DNA of 64,000 nt from Phormidium tenue FACHB-886 (GTDB lineage: Bacteria; Cyanobacteriota; Cyanobacteriia; Elainellales; Elainellaceae), in NCBI RefSeq assembly GCF_014764505.1, contig NZ_JACXWX010000019.1:1-64000 (forward strand), in the 5' to 3' direction. Of this stretch, positions 1,413 through 11,399 are shown in pieces. Within the stretch, counting starts at the first letter, position 1. Each line of letters opens with the position of its first letter. The notes beneath the pieces were generated by a model that was given only the letters and a program-made list of their open reading frames with translations, was not told the DNA's origin and made no database searches. The position numbers were made by a program, and so were the translations under genes.

Positions 1413-2573
1413 ATGGTTACTGGAGTTCAGCCTGCGCTGCTAGTGTTAGCCGATGGCACAGCCTACCGGGGTTGGTCGTTTGGAGCGCTTGGAACGACGA
1501 TCGGCGAAGTGGTATTTAACACCGGGATGACGGGCTATCAGGAGGTGATGACAGATCCAAGCTATCGCGGACAGATTGTCACCTTTACCTATCCAGAGTT
1601 GGGCAATACGGGCGTGAATCCAGAAGATGAAGAATCAAATCGTCCCCATGTTAGAGGCGTGATTGCCCGCAACATCTGCCGTCTGCCCAGCAACTGGCGC
1701 ATGACTCAATCGCTGCCAGATTACCTGAAGCAGTACGGCATTCCTGGAATTTTTGGCATTGACACGCGCGCCCTCACCCGTAAGATTCGCTCTGCCGGGT
1801 CGATGAACGGCGGCATCTCGACTGAAATTCTTGACCCGGTCGATCTGCTGATGCAGGTGCAGCAAGCCCCCAGCATGGCAGGCTTAAACCTGGTACAGGA
1901 AGTCAGCACCCAAACGGTTTATGAGTGGACAGAATCGACAGATAAGGTCTGGGACTACAAGCCAACTGCCGCTCCCACAGGAACAGACAAACCGTTCACT
2001 GTGGTGGCGATCGACTTTGGTATTAAGCGCAATATTCTACGGCGGCTGGCAAGCTATGGTTGTCATGTGATTGTGGTTCCGGCAAACACACCGCCCGAAG
2101 AAATCCTCAAGTACAACCCGGATGGCATTTTCCTCTCGAATGGTCCCGGCGATCCAGCAGTGGTAACAGAAGGGATCGAAACCACCAAAGCACTGTTGAC
2201 TAGCCAAAAACCTGTCTTCGGGATCTGCATGGGGCATCAGATCCTCGGCTTGTCGCTAGGGGCAGATACTTTCAAGCTCAAATACGGGCATCGCGGACTA
2301 AACCAGCCCTGCGGCTTAAAGCAACAGATTGAAATCACAAGCCAAAATCACGGCTTTGCCATCAGCGCTGATTCACTGCCTGATGCCGAGGTAGAAATCA
2401 CTCACCTGAACCTAAACGATCGCACGGTTGCTGGGCTGCGCCACAAAACGCTGCCGCTCTTCTCGGTGCAATACCACCCCGAAGCCAGCCCCGGACCCCA
2501 TGATGCCGATTACCTGTTTGAGAACTTCGTGAAATCGATGCGGCAGCAGCGCCAGCAGACGGTCGGCTCTTAG
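1413..2573 (+). CDS. carA: Carbamoyl-phosphate synthase, small (glutaminase) subunit
   Basis: The protein supplies ammonia from glutamine to the large subunit CarB for carbamoyl phosphate, which feeds arginine and pyrimidine synthesis. Residues 1-150 form the CarA N-terminal domain ([15 protein letters not shown] near the start). The second half is a class I glutamine amidotransferase with the nucleophile Cys272 in [11 protein letters not shown] and His355/Glu357 in QYHPEAS. I chose ATG 1413, giving 386 residues, because [15 protein letters not shown] matches family N-termini. A GTG at 1389 would add eight residues overlapping the purine-rich ribosome site. carB is not in this window, which is common in cyanobacteria. 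A hairpin at 2594-2640 separates it from the next gene. Confidence 0.97.
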
Positions 2574-2593
2574 AGAGAAGGCTCCTAAAAGCA

Positions 2594-2640
2594 TGTTAGG
2601 TTTTTGGGGGTCGGCTTTGCCCAATTCCAAAAACCTAACA
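2594..2640. repeat. 14-bp perfect inverted repeat between carA and bestrophin gene
   Basis: TGTTAGGTTTTTGG (2594-2607) is repeated as its exact reverse complement at 2627-2640, with a 19-base loop. The T-run lies in the left arm and the A-run in the right arm, the reverse of an intrinsic terminator, so termination is doubtful. It spans the first possible start codon of the next frame (2593), which argues that the true start lies further down. Confidence 0.8.
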
Positions 2641-2691
2641 ACTACAGTCTTCGCCACAATGCCTGTGTTGGCGGACAAAAATCAAACTGCG

Positions 2692-3645
2692 ATGTATCTC
2701 AAAAAACAAAAAACCTGGTTCCAGCTCGCTTTTAAGCTGCGGGGATCGGTCGTGCCTTTAGTGCTGCCGCGATCGCTGCTGTGCGGCGGCTTTGGTCTGT
2801 TCGTCTCCTGGCTCTACAGCTTAGGATTGCCGGTGGCATTGCCCGTGATGGCAAGCGTCATTCCTAATATTGTGTTGGGTTTGATGCTGGTCTTTCGGAC
2901 GAACACCGCCTACGAGCGCTATTGGGAAGGGCGACGGCTGTGGGGCAATATTATCAACAGCGTCCGCAATCTGTCGCGTAGCGTCTGGGTTGGCGTTCTT
3001 GAAAAAGATCCGCAAGACCATTCCAATAAAGTTGCGACCTTGCAGCTGATTATGGCGTTTGTAGTGGCAACCAAGCTACACCTGCGTCAACAGACAGTTA
3101 GCACAGAGCTGCAGCCGTTTTTGTCTAAAACGCGCTACACCACGCTAAAGCTGATCGACCACCCCCCGCTGGAAATTTCGGTGTGGATTCAAGACTACCT
3201 GCAGCAGCAGTTTCAGCAGCAGCGGTTAGATGGCTACCAGCTCAACGCCATGCTGCAGCTCTTGGATAGCATGGTGGATAGTCTAGGTGGCTGCGAACGC
3301 ATTTTGAAAACACCAATGCCGCTCGCTTATGCTATTCATTTAAAGCAATTATTGCTAATTTATTGCATGGCTCTGCCATTTACATTTGTTCAAGAGCTGC
3401 ACTGGTGGACAGGGGCAATCGTCACTTTAATTAGCTTTACGCTGTTTGGAATTGAAGAGATTGGCATTGAAATTGAAAACCCCTTTGGTAGAGATTCAAA
3501 CGATCTGCCGCTGGATAGTTTCTCCAAAACAATTGAGCGCAATATCAACGACATCATGCGGCTGGAACCATATAGCGCCAAGGGCTTGGTGCAGGAGAAG
3601 CGATCGCCCATCTCAGAATTTGAGGATTTACAATCTGCAACTTGA
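2692..3645 (+). CDS. Bestrophin-like (UPF0187) membrane channel
   Basis: The signature FRTNTAYERYWEGRRLWG at residues 69-86 and the C-terminal EEIGIEIENPFG-x-NDLPLD segment identify the bacterial bestrophin family, inner-membrane pentameric ion channels. Hydrophobic segments near residues 25-65 and two further ones near the C-terminal third fit the fold. ATG 2692 gives 317 residues. ATG 2659 (328 residues) is an alternative, while the upstream ATG at 2593 falls in a hairpin and is unlikely. The family conducts anions or cations depending on the member, and some algal bestrophins carry bicarbonate, but the substrate here cannot be read from sequence. The position after carA, a bicarbonate-using enzyme subunit, is suggestive only. 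Confidence 0.85.
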   Translation: MYLKKQKTWFQLAFKLRGSVVPLVLPRSLLCGGFGLFVSWLYSLGLPVALPVMASVIPNIVLGLMLVFRTNTAYERYWEGRRLWGNIINSVRNLSRSVWVGVLEKDPQDHSNKVATLQLIMAFVVATKLHLRQQTVSTELQPFLSKTRYTTLKLIDHPPLEISVWIQDYLQQQFQQQRLDGYQLNAMLQLLDSMVDSLGGCERILKTPMPLAYAIHLKQLLLIYCMALPFTFVQELHWWTGAIVTLISFTLFGIEEIGIEIENPFGRDSNDLPLDSFSKTIERNINDIMRLEPYSAKGLVQEKRSPISEFEDLQSAT

Positions 3646-3909
3646 TAATTAGAAATATTCAGCAAGTTTCAAAATTTTTCAAATTAAAAATTCCCAGATT
3701 TCAAAGCTTACGTTGATTCACTGTGCGAATTACTTCTAATAGGCAGTTTTGGCGAGTTGACTTCTGTGTTTTTGCTCGATACTTTAAGGGGAGAGACACT
3801 GAAATTTAAACGTCGAAATTGCAATCAAGGTGACGTTTGACTAAAGAGGTAAATGGAGAGATACACAGTACCCCATCTGCCCGTCCCTTGAGACCCACAG
3901 GAGAATACT

Positions 3910-4467
3910 ATGCCGACCACTGAAACTTTGCTTCAACCGTTTGATCAAGTCCGCGATAACCCAATTCTGCTAGAAACAAACGTCACGAAGGCAATTTGTG
4001 ATGGGCTGAATGTAGTGCTGGCAAGCTTCCAGGCGCTGTATCTGCAGTACCAAAAGCATCACTTTGTGGTAGAAGGCGCTGAGTTCTACCAGCTACATCA
4101 GTTTTTTAACGAGGCGTATGAAGAAGTGCAGGAGCACGTCCATGAGGTGGGTGAGCGCCTGAATGGATTGGGCGGCATCCCGGCGGCAGGCTTTGCCAAG
4201 CTGGCGGAGCTTTGCTGCTTTGAGCAGGAGCCAGACGGTGGATTTGGCTGCCGCTCGATGGTGAAGCACGATCTGCAGGCTGAGCAAGCCATCATCAAAG
4301 TCATCCGGCAGCAGGCATCGCAGGCAGAGAGCTTGGGCGATCGCGCCACTCGTCTGCTCTACGAAAAAATCTTGCTGGAAACGGAAGATCGGGCATTCCA
4401 CCTCGATCACTTCCTGGTACACGACAGCCTCACGCCTGCCTTCAACCTGGCAAACGCCAACAACTAG
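3910..4467 (+). CDS. dps: Dps family ferritin-like DNA-protection protein
   Basis: This is a 185-residue Dps protein, which forms a 12-subunit cage that oxidises and stores iron using peroxide and protects DNA. The ferroxidase region is recognisable: His50/His51, then EFYQLHQFF (His63) and [14 protein letters not shown]. In canonical Dps the last block reads with an Asp four residues before the conserved Glu. Here that Asp is His78, with Glu82 kept. As I recall, a His-type ferroxidase centre has been described for a Nostoc Dps4, so this may be the same subtype. A run of extra Cys residues occurs mid-protein ([15 protein letters not shown]). The start ATG has GGAG eight bases upstream. An intrinsic terminator follows. 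Confidence 0.9.
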
Positions 4468-4488
4468 GACTTGACGCTGTGAATTTTG

Positions 4489-4529
4489 AGCGGGAGGTGC
4501 GGAGAGCGCATCTCCCGCTTGTTGTTTTT
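4489..4529 (+). terminator. Intrinsic terminator after dps
   Basis: AGCGGGAG (4489-4496) pairs with CTCCCGCT (4512-4519), with further pairing inside, followed by the T-rich TGTTGTTTTT. It lies 20 bases beyond the dps stop and just before the convergent gene. Confidence 0.85.
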
Positions 4530-4563
4530 AAGGCTGAGGTTTCAAGGCTGACCCACTTGTAGT

Positions 4564-7197
4564 TTAGCGATCGCTGCCATCGCCTTCCTCCTCTAGCTGT
4601 TGTTTGAGCGCCTCACACTCTTTGACTAAGGGAATCCCCAACTCAGTCGCAATTGCCAACGCCCGAGCGCACTCCTGCCGCGCTAATTCGATCGATCCTA
4701 TTTTTTGGTGCAGTTCTGCTAACCTTAGAAGCGCTTCAGCCTCACCTTCTCGATCACCAATTTCTTGGAAAATCTCTAGCGAGGCTTGCAGATACTCCAA
4801 AGCTTCTGAACACTGCTCTAGTCTGATTAACGTGCATCCCCAATTTACAAGCGCATTGCCTTCGCCTTGTCGATTGCCAATCTCACGGGCAATGGCTAAG
4901 TGTTGCTGATGGTACTCGATCGCCTCGGTATAGTTGCCCAAGCTGTAGTAAGCAATTCCCAGATTGCCTAAGGCATTGCCTTCTCCTCGTCGATCGCCAA
5001 TGTCACGGGCAATCGCTAAGCTTTGCTGATGGTACTCGATCGCCTCGGTATAGTCGCCCAAGCTGTCGTAAGCAATTCCCAGATTGCCTAAGGCATTGCT
5101 TTCTCCTCGTCGATCACTAATGTCACGGGCAATCGCTAAGCTTTGCTGATGGTACTCGATCGCCTCGGTATAGTTGCCCAATTTATAGTAAGCAAGTCCC
5201 AGATTGCCTAACGCAATGCCTTCACCCTGTCGATCGGCAATCTCATGGGCAACAAATAGACGCTTATTGTGGAGCGGAATTAGTTTTCGGTAGTATCCCC
5301 AAATGAAAAGCTGCCAGTATACTTCGTTCTTGGTTTCTAGGAGCCGGTAAGGAATTTCATGGGCGATTTGATAGTCTTTTACATCGCAATAGTGATCGAA
5401 CGCCTCCAAATAACCCCGTACCTTCTCTAGATTCGCCACTTCTGGCGCAGCCTCATAGTGATTCAACCACTGCTCTGCGGCCCTGCGTTCCGCCGCTTGC
5501 CAAATCGCCTCATCTGCTTTTAGCCGCTCATATCCCACACTGCGAATGAGGTTGTGCTGCCGCAGCGGTATTTCGTCATCTGCTCCGAGCCAAGCCCCTT
5601 CCTCCCACTCTTCTTCTGCCAATCCTCGCGCCTTCAGCAGCTCCAGTGCAGTTTCCGGCTCCGATTGCTCCGGCAGCATCGCCAGCCAAAACGCTTCCGG
5701 GACGGGACGACGATACACCGAACTGCGGCAAAGCAACTGCAAAGCATCCTCCGGCAATCGTGCCAGCGCCTCTTTTACCCGTTGCTTCACCTCTAGCTGG
5801 AACTTGCGCCGTGAGATCTGTGCTGGACGGTTGTCTTCCAATTGGTCAAACTTGCCCCGCTGCCAATAGCGCTGTACATTGCCGCCACAGGCTTTGATAT
5901 CTTCGGCAATCACCCGCAGGACTAGAGGATGTCCGTCATACAGCTTGCCGATACGGCGGAGATAGTCGGTGTTCTTCTCGAATAAACCCCGCTTGGTAAA
6001 CAGTTCCAACTGTTCAGCTTCGCTTAGCCCCCGAATCGGTTCACAATACCACCGCTGCGGATAGCGCGACCCTATGATCTCCAACTCTTCCGGCAAGTCT
6101 TGCGTCGTCAGAATGATCTGGCTCTGGCAGTCATTTCCTGTTAAGAGCTGCTGTAAGAGATCGAGCCACAGTGGATCAGCAAACTCACTCCAGCCCTGTC
6201 GATCGTCTCCCTCTAGCAACCGTTCCATCGAATCGATCTGCACTCGGTAGGGCTGAATCCGCAGCAGTTCCAGCAGATGCGCCAACAAGTTTTGGGGGTC
6301 TTGCTGGTCTGCTAGCGTCGGTTCTTCGCCCCAAGATCGCAGCAACGCCGCCCCACTGCTGGCGAATTCCGCCGTGATGCCGCCCTCATCCAGATTCAGC
6401 CGAGAGAATTGCCGTTCATCTTGCAGTTCTGCGATCAATCGTTCTGCCAATGCCGTCTTACCAATTCCCGTGATTCCCGTCAGTGCCAACACACGACAAC
6501 TTCCTTGCAGAACTTGCACCAGCGGTTCTGTCACATCGGATCGCTCTACCCAAGTTGAGGCGTTGTAGATCGCCGGGCTGAAGGGCTGGGAAGAGGTGGG
6601 AGCAAATTTCACCGACCGATCTGCATTTGGCTGTTTCTTCAGCACGGGCTTCAAGTCGTTCTCGCCGGATAGCTGCGCCGCACTACAGCCGAACTGATAG
6701 GCAAACTCAATGTCTCGTCCTGCCCCCAGCGCATCATAAAAACCTACGACAAACTCGATCGCTGCTTGCTCGTCGATCGCCTGACTCATGCCAATCACAT
6801 AGGGAATATGACGAGCGATCGCTTCCGCCTGCGCTTCCGAATAGCAAGCATTCAGCACCACGCACCGCAGCCGATCGGTAAACAGCTTAAACAACCCTGT
6901 CAAGGCTTCGGCATCAATCAGCTTTGCCTGACCCATCTCATCCTCAAACACCAATCCCGCTTCTGCCTCACCCTGCCCAGAAAAATGCACAATTTGCGGA
7001 TTCAGATCGAGCATGGCTCGCTGCAAATCTCTCGGACGAACGGCAGATTTTGTTTCCAACTGAAACTGATCGCGGTGGCGAGAGAGGCGTAACCCTTCTG
7101 CAATGTCTCGTTTTTCCTGCTCCAGTCGATGAGACGAAATGCCCGTGGGGCTGGCGCTCAGCATCAAGATGGTAGTGACGGGAAGGGACTGGCTCAT
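4564..7197 (-). CDS. CHAT protease - STAND NTPase - TPR protein
   Basis: This is an 877-residue three-part signalling protein. Residues 1-175 form a CHAT domain, a caspase-like peptidase, with the expected His71 in PQIVHFSGQGE and Cys118 in VVLNACYSE. Residues about 215-520 form a STAND/NB-ARC-like NTPase with a P-loop GITGIGKT at 241-248 and a downstream helical region. Residues about 650-870 contain at least five tetratricopeptide repeats. The first three share near-identical DNA. The architecture resembles NLR-type sensors in which TPRs sense a ligand, the NTPase oligomerises and the CHAT protease acts. In other bacteria CHAT proteases cut gasdermins or other partners, but no such partner is visible here. 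It stands alone, convergent with dps. Its substrate and trigger are unknown. Confidence 0.9.
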   Translation of the reverse strand: MSQSLPVTTILMLSASPTGISSHRLEQEKRDIAEGLRLSRHRDQFQLETKSAVRPRDLQRAMLDLNPQIVHFSGQGEAEAGLVFEDEMGQAKLIDAEALTGLFKLFTDRLRCVVLNACYSEAQAEAIARHIPYVIGMSQAIDEQAAIEFVVGFYDALGAGRDIEFAYQFGCSAAQLSGENDLKPVLKKQPNADRSVKFAPTSSQPFSPAIYNASTWVERSDVTEPLVQVLQGSCRVLALTGITGIGKTALAERLIAELQDERQFSRLNLDEGGITAEFASSGAALLRSWGEEPTLADQQDPQNLLAHLLELLRIQPYRVQIDSMERLLEGDDRQGWSEFADPLWLDLLQQLLTGNDCQSQIILTTQDLPEELEIIGSRYPQRWYCEPIRGLSEAEQLELFTKRGLFEKNTDYLRRIGKLYDGHPLVLRVIAEDIKACGGNVQRYWQRGKFDQLEDNRPAQISRRKFQLEVKQRVKEALARLPEDALQLLCRSSVYRRPVPEAFWLAMLPEQSEPETALELLKARGLAEEEWEEGAWLGADDEIPLRQHNLIRSVGYERLKADEAIWQAAERRAAEQWLNHYEAAPEVANLEKVRGYLEAFDHYCDVKDYQIAHEIPYRLLETKNEVYWQLFIWGYYRKLIPLHNKRLFVAHEIADRQGEGIALGNLGLAYYKLGNYTEAIEYHQQSLAIARDISDRRGESNALGNLGIAYDSLGDYTEAIEYHQQSLAIARDIGDRRGEGNALGNLGIAYYSLGNYTEAIEYHQQHLAIAREIGNRQGEGNALVNWGCTLIRLEQCSEALEYLQASLEIFQEIGDREGEAEALLRLAELHQKIGSIELARQECARALAIATELGIPLVKECEALKQQLEEEGDGSDR
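4861..5220 (-). repeat. Three 120-bp direct repeats encoding TPR units
   Basis: Three consecutive 120-base units (4861-4980, 4981-5100, 5101-5220) each encode one 40-residue TPR such as GNLGIAYDSLGDYTEAIEY. The second and third units differ at only a handful of positions, and the first is slightly more diverged. Such DNA-level identity suggests recent duplication or ongoing gene conversion, which can change repeat number. Confidence 0.9.
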
Positions 7198-8277: not shown

Positions 8278-8354
8278 TTGCTGGCAGCCTCTTCCCTCCA
8301 CATGGCAGAATTTAGATAAATTTAAGCTTCATTAGACGTTATTTCTTGCCAACC

Positions 8355-11300
8355 ATGACCGCATCGATCCCAACGCTCGCCAGCCAATATGATTCCGCTG
8401 CCACCGAAGCCAAATGGCAGCAAGCCTGGGAAGAAAATCAGGTCTTCAAGGCAGACCCTGACCACGGCGGGGAGCCATTCACTGTCGTCATTCCGCCGCC
8501 CAACGTCACCGGCAGCCTGCACATGGGACATGCCTTTGAGATGTCCTTGATTGACGCAGTAGTGCGCTATCAGCGCATGCTGGGCAAAAACACGCTGTGG
8601 CTACCCGGCACCGACCATGCCAGCATCGCAGTCCAAACGATTCTAGAGCGGGAGCTGCGCGAGCAAGGCAAGCACCGAGACGATGTGGGGCGCGAGGCGT
8701 TTTTACAGCGGGCTTGGGAGTGGAAAGCTGAGTCTGGCGGCAAGATCGTCGGTCAGCTGCGGCGGCTGGGTGTCTCAGTGGACTGGACGCGAGAGCGCTT
8801 CACGATGGATGAGGGCTTATCCGCCGCTGTCCTGACTGCCTTCAAACAGCTTTACCAGGAAGGCTTGATCTATCGCGGCAAGTACATGGTCAACTGGTGC
8901 CCTGCTAGCCAGTCGGCGGTATCTGACTTGGAAGTGGAAAACAAAGAGGTGAACGGACACCTCTGGCACTTCCGCTATCCGCTCACCGATGGCTCCGGCT
9001 TTGTGGAGGTAGCAACTACCCGGCCCGAGACGATGCTGGGCGATACAGCAGTTGCGGTCAACCCAAACGACGATCGCTACAAGCATCTGGTCGGCAAAAC
9101 CCTGATGCTGCCGCTGATGAACCGTGAGATCCCCATCATTGCCGATGACTATGTGGATGCCAGCTTTGGCACGGGCTGCGTCAAAATTACCCCTGCCCAC
9201 GACCTCAACGACTTCGAAATGGGCAAGCGGCACAACCTGCCGATGATTAATATCCTCAACAAGGACGGCACTCTCAACGAGAATGCCGGAGAGTTTCAGG
9301 GGCAAGATCGCTTCGTCGCCCGCAAAAATGTAGTCAGTCGCCTGGAAGCAGAGGGTTTCCTGGTGAAGGTGGAAGACCACAAGCACACCGTTCCCTACAG
9401 CGATCGCGGCAAAGTGCCCATAGAACCGCTGCTCTCTACCCAGTGGTTTGTCAAAATTCGTCCGCTTGCCGATCGCGCCCTTGAGTTTTTAGACCAGCGC
9501 AATGACCCGGTGTTTCTGCCCGATCGCTGGACAAAGGTGTACCGAGACTGGCTAGTCAGCCTGCGCGACTGGTGCATTTCGCGACAGCTCTGGTGGGGAC
9601 ATCAGATTCCGGCATGGTACGCCATCAGCGAAACGAATGGCGAAATCACTGACGATACGCCCTTTGTGGTCGCTACTAGCGAAGCAGAAGCTCGAGAGCA
9701 GGCGATCGCCCGCTTTGGCGCAAAGGTGCAGCTGGTGCAAGACCCGGATGTGCTAGACACCTGGTTTTCTTCGGGTCTGTGGCCCTTCTCCACCCTGGGC
9801 TGGCCTGAGCAAACACGTGATCTAGAAACCTACTATCCCACGACTACGCTCGTCACCGGGTTTGACATCATCTTTTTCTGGGTTGCCCGCATGACCATGA
9901 TGGCGGGACACTTCACAGGCAAGATGCCGTTCCAGACTGTCTACATTCACGGTCTGGTGCGGGATGAAAATGGCAAAAAGATGTCGAAGTCTGCCAACAA
10001 TGGCATCGATCCGCTGCTGCTGATTAACAAGTACAGTACTGATGCCCTGCGCTTCACGCTGACCCGAGAAGTGGCGGGGGCGGGGCAAGACATCAGCCTG
10101 GAATACGATCGCCGAACTGATGAATCTACCTCGGTCGAAGCCTCGCGCAACTTCACCAACAAAATTTGGAATGCGTCCCGGTTTGTGATGCTAAACCTGG
10201 AAGGCCAAACGCCTGCTCAGCTAGGAGCGCCAAAGGCGGCAGATCTAGAGCTAGCCGATCGCTGGATTTTGTCGCGCTACCACCAAGTCGTGCAGCAAAC
10301 GCGCAGCTATCTGGACAACTACGGCTTGGGCGAAGCCGCTAAAGGGCTGTACGAGTTTTTCTGGGGTGACTTCTGTGATTGGTACATCGAGCTGGTGAAA
10401 TCGCGGCTTCAGCAAAAAGGCATCTCTGGCAAAGTGGCGCAGCAGGTGTTGGCGCAAGTGCTGGAGGGAACTCTGCGGCTGCTGCACCCCTTCCTGCCTC
10501 ACGTCACCGAAGAAGTTTGGCACACCCTGACCCAAGCCAGTAGCGACACCTATCTAGCGCTGCAAGCCTACCCAACTGCCGATCCCAGCCTGATCGATGC
10601 CGATCTAGACCAGCAGTTTGAGCAGCTGATTAGCACTATCCGCGCTATTCGCAATCTGCGCGCTGAGGCAGGCGTTAAACCAGGGATCAAAATCCAGACG
10701 ATTCTGGAAACCGAAAGCGAGCGCGAACGCGAAATTTTCCAAGCTGGACAAACTTACATCCAAGACTTGGCAAAAGTAGAGCGGTTGACGATCGCTGCGC
10801 CTGCCCCCCTAGTCGTTACAGGGACAGGCAAACCCGTCTCCGCGCCCAGCATTCCGCAGCCGCTTGCAGCAAACCGCACTGCAGCAGACGAGATCAACTG
10901 GCGGGAAAAGCCCGTTGTGGTGCTGCTGATGCTGGTGTTGCTGGGCGGGATTGCCCTGAATATAGTGATTCATCTGCTGGCATTGGGCAAGCTGATTTGG
11001 GATCTAACTGTGGCAAAGAAACAGGTAACGGTGAAGCCGCGCCGCAAACCGCCCACTCTGCCACCCACCACTATCACGGTTGCCTCTACACCCGTCACAG
11101 AGTTACCCCAGCCCGCCCGATTGCCCAGCGCCTCGGCTGAGCAGCTTTTTGCAGGCGTAGTTGGCACCACCCAAGTGCTGATTCCGCTGGCAGGGGTGGT
11201 GGATGTAGAAGCTCTGAAAACTAAGCTCCAGAAAGATATGGGCAAGGCTGAAGCTGAAATTCAATCGTTGACGCAGCGCCTCAACAATCCTAAGTTTGTA

Positions 11301-11399
11301 GATAAAGCGCCTGCCGACGTGGTGCAGAATGCACGAGATGCCCTGGCAGAAGCGCAAAAACAGTCGGAAATTTTGCGCGATCGCCTCGATCGGCTTTAG
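8355..11399 (+). CDS. valS: Valyl-tRNA synthetase with internal membrane segment
   Basis: This class I synthetase of 1014 residues charges tRNA-Val. The HMGH signature is at residues 56-59 in [14 protein letters not shown] and KMSKS at 542-546. The editing and anticodon-binding domains lie between and after them, and the usual C-terminal coiled coil ([17 protein letters not shown] and on) closes the protein. Between the anticodon domain and the coiled coil sits an extra segment of about 110 residues. It holds a long hydrophobic stretch near residues 850-882 ([20 protein letters not shown]) flanked by Pro-rich and basic sequence. This is the position where some cyanobacterial synthetases carry the CAAD membrane-anchor domain, but only one hydrophobic stretch is evident, so it may be a reduced or divergent form. 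I chose ATG 8355; a TTG three codons upstream is possible. Confidence 0.95.

Follow-up and report, generated by a model that had tools for sequence, protein, structure and literature searches.

A STAND NTPase-TPR protein of Phormidium tenue FACHB-886 carries a CHAT domain with glutamine at the catalytic histidine position

Does the caspase-like CHAT domain of a STAND receptor in Phormidium tenue FACHB-886 still work as a protease? The question is raised by a gene in the window, the 64,000-nucleotide stretch of DNA that was analysed. The gene (4564..7197, minus strand, as are all its features below) encodes 877 amino acids in an open frame with zero internal stops. As originally predicted, a CHAT domain, a STAND NTPase and TPRs lie on one chain, which the frame and the Pfam and PADLOC domains confirmed. 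The CHAT (caspase-fold) domain occupies residues 8-188 (6634..7176) according to Pfam PF12770, a PDB profile, AlphaFold2 and Foldseek, and the match of the domain searches spans residues 26-164. It was detected at 8e-8 by Pfam in the whole protein, at 2.3e-9 by PF12770 on the domain alone and at 2.4e-18 by the PADLOC chat model. The STAND NTPase follows at residues ~205-480 (5758..6585), with the P-loop at 241-248 and the Walker B residues D322 and E325. AAA_22 (1.5e-6) is the sole NTPase model of Pfam above its curated cut-off in this protein; similarity extends to AAA_16, NB-ARC and NACHT, and NB-ARC is above cut-off in relatives. The next region, helical and winged-helix-like (residues ~480-640; 5278..5760), bears a conserved RQHNLIR (MHD-like) motif in which Q547, H548 and R552 are invariant. 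TPR repeats fill residues ~640-875 (4573..5280), as indicated by TPR_12 (3e-50), with domain matches from residue ~660 onwards, and by regular helix pairs modelled with high confidence in the full-length structure. Within them, Tandem Repeats Finder detected a tandem repeat with a 120-bp unit, 3.3 copies and 89% match (4853..5252). Named anti-phage STAND systems (Avs and others, PADLOC-DB 2023) gave no match over most of the protein; PADLOC returned only generic TPR, chat (for the N-terminal domain) and weak partial matches, and the PDB sequence search only generic domain matches.

The original prediction had taken His71 and Cys118 as an intact catalytic pair, and the protein as a protease with its target encoded elsewhere. 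Alignments overturned the first claim and do not support the second: they place the catalytic histidine position at Gln75 and leave the named pair misplaced for catalysis, an outcome that the prediction itself had listed as refuting it. The motif of the window protein is PQIVH71-F-S-G-Q75-G, giving HFSGQG where the family motif is HFSGHG. Three comparisons identify Gln75 (6973..6975) with the catalytic position, which is His in 144 of 158 relatives. It aligns with the His of HFIGHG in SAVED-CHAT 8tl0, the only close solved relative. Same-type CHAT paralogues in the same genome keep the His, at least seven of them with an intact HF[CS]GHG...LNAC site. In Csx29 the experimentally mutated dyad, His615/Cys658, is separated by 43 residues (PMC10028731), which is the distance from Gln75 to Cys118, while His71 and Cys118 are 47 residues apart. 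The codon, CAG, differs from a His codon in the third base only, and it was read from one sequence of this CHAT allele, so that it may have arisen by mutation only recently or stem from a fault in the assembly. His71 (6985..6987) is invariant in a 53-sequence alignment alongside the catalytic His; since active-type members carry both, His71 is not the dyad histidine. The tempting misreading of the HFSG histidine as the catalytic one would lead to the wrong mutant at the bench. Cys118, at the catalytic Cys position of LNAC (6844..6846), is retained; it is (nearly) invariant in CHAT relatives, and 13 of the 14 His-less relatives keep it. In 13 or more of the genome's TPR-type CHAT proteins the two-histidine layout recurs as H-x-x-x-H-G, mostly HLATHG. 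In all, the genome gave 38 CHAT-family matches, including at least 13 TPR-CHAT proteins that have HG and SAC motifs.

Judged from its residues, this chain is unlikely to cleave proteins itself. For an active protease sensor, some other residue, such as His71, would have to activate Cys118, and the substrate would have to come from another locus. The kept Cys118, the invariant His71 and a CHAT fold predicted with good confidence would agree with such a sensor. It is nevertheless regarded as very improbable, because Gln stands in place of the dyad His, Asp143 and Leu23 have been replaced as well, His71 accompanies the catalytic His in active-type members and the H615A/C658A double mutant of Csx29 is inactive (PMC10028731).

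The isolated CHAT domain was modelled by AlphaFold2 with a pLDDT of 87. In Foldseek the model matched 8tl0 with a TM score of 0.83 and caspases with ~0.6, and the PDB profile match to 8tl0 was 1.6e-25 at ~24% identity. Matches of armadillo proteins to the CHAT query had low scores and were dismissed as chance. The full-length model reached a mean pLDDT of 78.6 and a pTM of 0.60, with low confidence in the linker 164-217. Its best match in the structure search was the STAND-TPR protein 6mfv, with Apaf-1, CED-4 and plant NLRs lower in the list.

Loss of the catalytic histidine was surveyed in the CHAT domains most similar to that of the window, taken from 380 genomes of the class. Among the 158 distinct near-full-length cyanobacterial domains, which were selected by similarity to the window and so do not give frequencies valid for CHAT domains in general, 144 have His in the catalytic column and 14 another residue. 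The His-less domains have Tyr (six, including one near-identical pair), Gln (two) or Asn, Arg, Phe, Ala, Glu and Gly (one each), and retain Cys and the majority of the other conserved positions. The CHAT tree places ten changes at this column, at least seven of them forced by supported branches. Two further positions are lost together with the His when 177 columns are scanned. The near-invariant Asp143 is lost in 11 of 14 His-less domains compared with 7 of 144 His-bearing ones (Fisher p 4e-10, top of the 177 columns), and the near-invariant Leu23 in 10 of 14 compared with 8 of 144 (p 2e-8, second), p values that ignore relatedness; the third-ranked column reached only 3e-4. In independent pairs the direction of co-loss was nearly always the same, with only five pairs on supported branches, too few for significance. 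The window domain has all three changes, with His23 (7129..7131) in place of Leu, Gln75, and Glu143 (6769..6771) in place of Asp, and keeps 96% of 46 other conserved positions. The His75/Asp143/Leu23 signature offers a simple way to tell CHAT domains of cyanobacterial conflict proteins that are probably active from those that are probably not. In one genome two genes close to each other both combine an EAD10-like stretch with a CHAT domain, one with HFCGHG/LNAC and the other with HFCGEAG/LNAY (L110 1-3201, G025), making a pair of active-type and dead CHAT.

The NTPase is in a different state. The P-loop had been described as intact, and it is: G241, G244, G246, K247, T248, D322, E325, H423-L425, Q547 and H548 are invariant in 23 homologues. 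When a second copy in the genome was compared, dN/dS came to ~0.12 in the NTPase, to 0.11 in the CHAT tail present in both copies and to 0.33 in the TPRs, so the NTPase is under purifying selection, and the value of the TPRs together with their 120-bp tandem repeat marks the sensor end as the fastest-changing. NTPase cores 43-73% identical to that of the window carry N-terminal CHAT, TIR_2, Trypsin_2 or short helical domains. In the core tree the two copies of this genome fall in a supported clade of four, the other two members of which have a short helical domain instead of CHAT, and at least three changes of the CHAT label are needed. The closest CHAT domains, ~60-70% identical, are mostly joined to TIR; others are joined to NACHT or AAA_35 or stand by themselves, and CHAT therefore behaves as a mobile module. 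Both the CHAT half and the NTPase half are, by these comparisons, exchangeable modules, as expected of conflict-system receptors.

The gene is flanked by dpsA and cbiX, beyond which lie bestrophin-like and carA-like genes, and the claim that no gasdermin or other obvious effector gene is adjacent held. In relatives carA-like, bestrophin-like, dpsA and cbiX form one block. In 10 of the 13 relatives examined the dpsA-cbiX gap is ~5-430 bp, with no space for a CHAT-STAND-TPR gene, and since dpsA and cbiX are adjacent in these ten the gene is a lineage-specific insertion. A search for conserved neighbours, which the original prediction had proposed, found no conserved neighbour or partner gene of this gene in the 13 relatives. 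The genome has no TIR_2 match, which rules out here the CHAT-TIR recruitment seen in relatives. The second copy (L205, contig C22 of G000, 3052-6659) is ~76% identical where aligned and begins at about residue 130, within CHAT, directly after pieces of a frameshifted ISAzo13 transposase. A CHAT protein with both dyad residues and an N-terminal stretch without assigned domain is encoded on another contig (L206, contig C135 of G000, 2210-3235, minus strand); it is ~68% identical to the window CHAT over residues 78-194 and is a candidate trans partner.

This setting suits a decaying receptor, a mobile CHAT-STAND-TPR gene inserted between dpsA and cbiX and losing function, with the His-to-Gln change as an early step. 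Such decay is a serious rival of a binding role for CHAT, and possible, though rather unlikely in our estimate. The insertion is absent from ten relatives; the sister copy, truncated at codon 130 beside the transposase, has lost most of its CHAT domain next to an IS element, which fits decay and speaks against the binding role; and upstream of the window gene no match to a sigma-70-like promoter was found, a weak test. On the other side, the frame is full-length, the dN/dS values for the NTPase and shared CHAT tail are low, nearly all CHAT-conserved positions are kept, and the same residues were lost together in independent lineages, which is not expected of random decay. An intact frame, purifying selection and the recurrence of the co-loss in separate lineages are the reasons for preferring a binding role.

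The sequence comparisons give good support to an NLR-like STAND sensor. The NLR-like layout first proposed has stood up: STAND motifs are intact, N-termini are swapped, the gene is inserted into a block of housekeeping genes, and a STAND-TPR protein and Apaf-1 are among the best structural matches of the whole chain. That its CHAT domain is a pseudo-protease serving as a binding module is the reading we favour tentatively, giving it close to an even chance. The protein would then be an ATPase for signalling, resembling NLRs and Apaf-1, in a cyanobacterium of filamentous type. That it works as a switch, signals without proteolysis, has a partner and takes part in immunity or cell death is our inference. 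A ligand, for instance a protein of an invader or a signal of cellular stress, would probably be sensed by the C-terminal TPRs, and the NTPase would then probably exchange nucleotide and oligomerise. CHAT without its catalytic His would act as a platform that recruits or regulates a partner instead of as a protease, and this partner may be a catalytically intact CHAT protein encoded elsewhere in the same genome. Against this reading stand the lack of an adjacent partner gene, of a conserved neighbourhood and of a TIR_2 match in the genome. More generally, cyanobacteria may repeatedly turn CHAT proteases that are part of signalling proteins into non-catalytic modules, with His75, Asp143 and Leu23 lost and Cys kept, that join active CHAT in trans, a doubtful proposal at present. 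If true, it would be a bacterial counterpart of the Apaf-1/caspase or cFLIP/caspase-8 pairing, with the caspase fold itself as adaptor, and bacterial caspase-fold domains would be assembly modules as well as proteases. The same partners could also be restrained. As a dominant-negative decoy, the pseudo-protease receptor would cap or titrate active CHAT/STAND proteins and hold back cell death. In favour, the genome has the seven or more paralogues of the same CHAT type with intact sites, one relative encodes active-type and dead EAD10-CHAT proteins close together, and dominant-negative or peptide-binding roles have been proposed for inactive caspases in related systems (Kaur et al., PMC7159879). 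Since no evidence ties the receptor, physically or genetically, to any one active CHAT protein, and the intact NTPase suggests that switching is retained, we hold the decoy to be unlikely.

The protein was originally called part of a little-described system, which is only partly so. Papers of 2020-2021 had already covered TPR-bearing STAND NTPases, caspase-like effectors and the presence of inactive caspases in systems of this kind; in one class about 70% of caspases in effector positions are inactive, with dominant-negative or peptide-binding roles proposed (PMC7159879, PMC8195603). The novelty is modest, as modular STAND/caspase proteins and inactive caspases were already described; the present analysis adds a signature of three residues specific to CHAT, together with its occurrence on a STAND-TPR receptor. 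With bacterial STAND (AP-ATPase/NB-ARC, NACHT) conflict proteins the window protein shares the central NTPase, the TPR C-terminus, the swappable N-terminus and a cyanobacterial host (PMC7159879, PMC8195603), but it is stand-alone, its effector is a CHAT domain without catalytic His and no partner gene is linked. SAVED-CHAT 8tl0, the closest solved CHAT domain, has a SAVED domain and intact HFIGHG instead of STAND-TPR and HFSGQG. Csx29 (TPR-CHAT) of Craspase has the CHAT fold, TPRs and the 43-residue dyad spacing in common with it, but is an active protease under control of Cas7-11 and target RNA, lacks an NTPase and has His615 (PMC10028731). Cyanobacterial pseudo-orthocaspases, already described, likewise combine a caspase fold with a substituted catalytic dyad, but are of p20 type and mostly Tyr-Ser, whereas the window has a CHAT domain with Gln-Cys fused to STAND-TPR (PMC6426788). 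PH0952 STAND-TPR (6mfv) and Apaf-1 (1z6t), among the best whole-chain structural matches, share the NTPase switch and repeats and have other N-terminal domains, Apaf-1 having CARD and also WD40. In CHAT-gasdermin modules the gasdermin is adjacent, unlike here.

Elsewhere in the window, a valyl-tRNA synthetase-like ORF (8346-11399, plus strand) has a C-terminal extension with a hydrophobic, membrane-like segment. The extension resembles the CAAD-type extensions of some cyanobacterial aminoacyl-tRNA synthetases.
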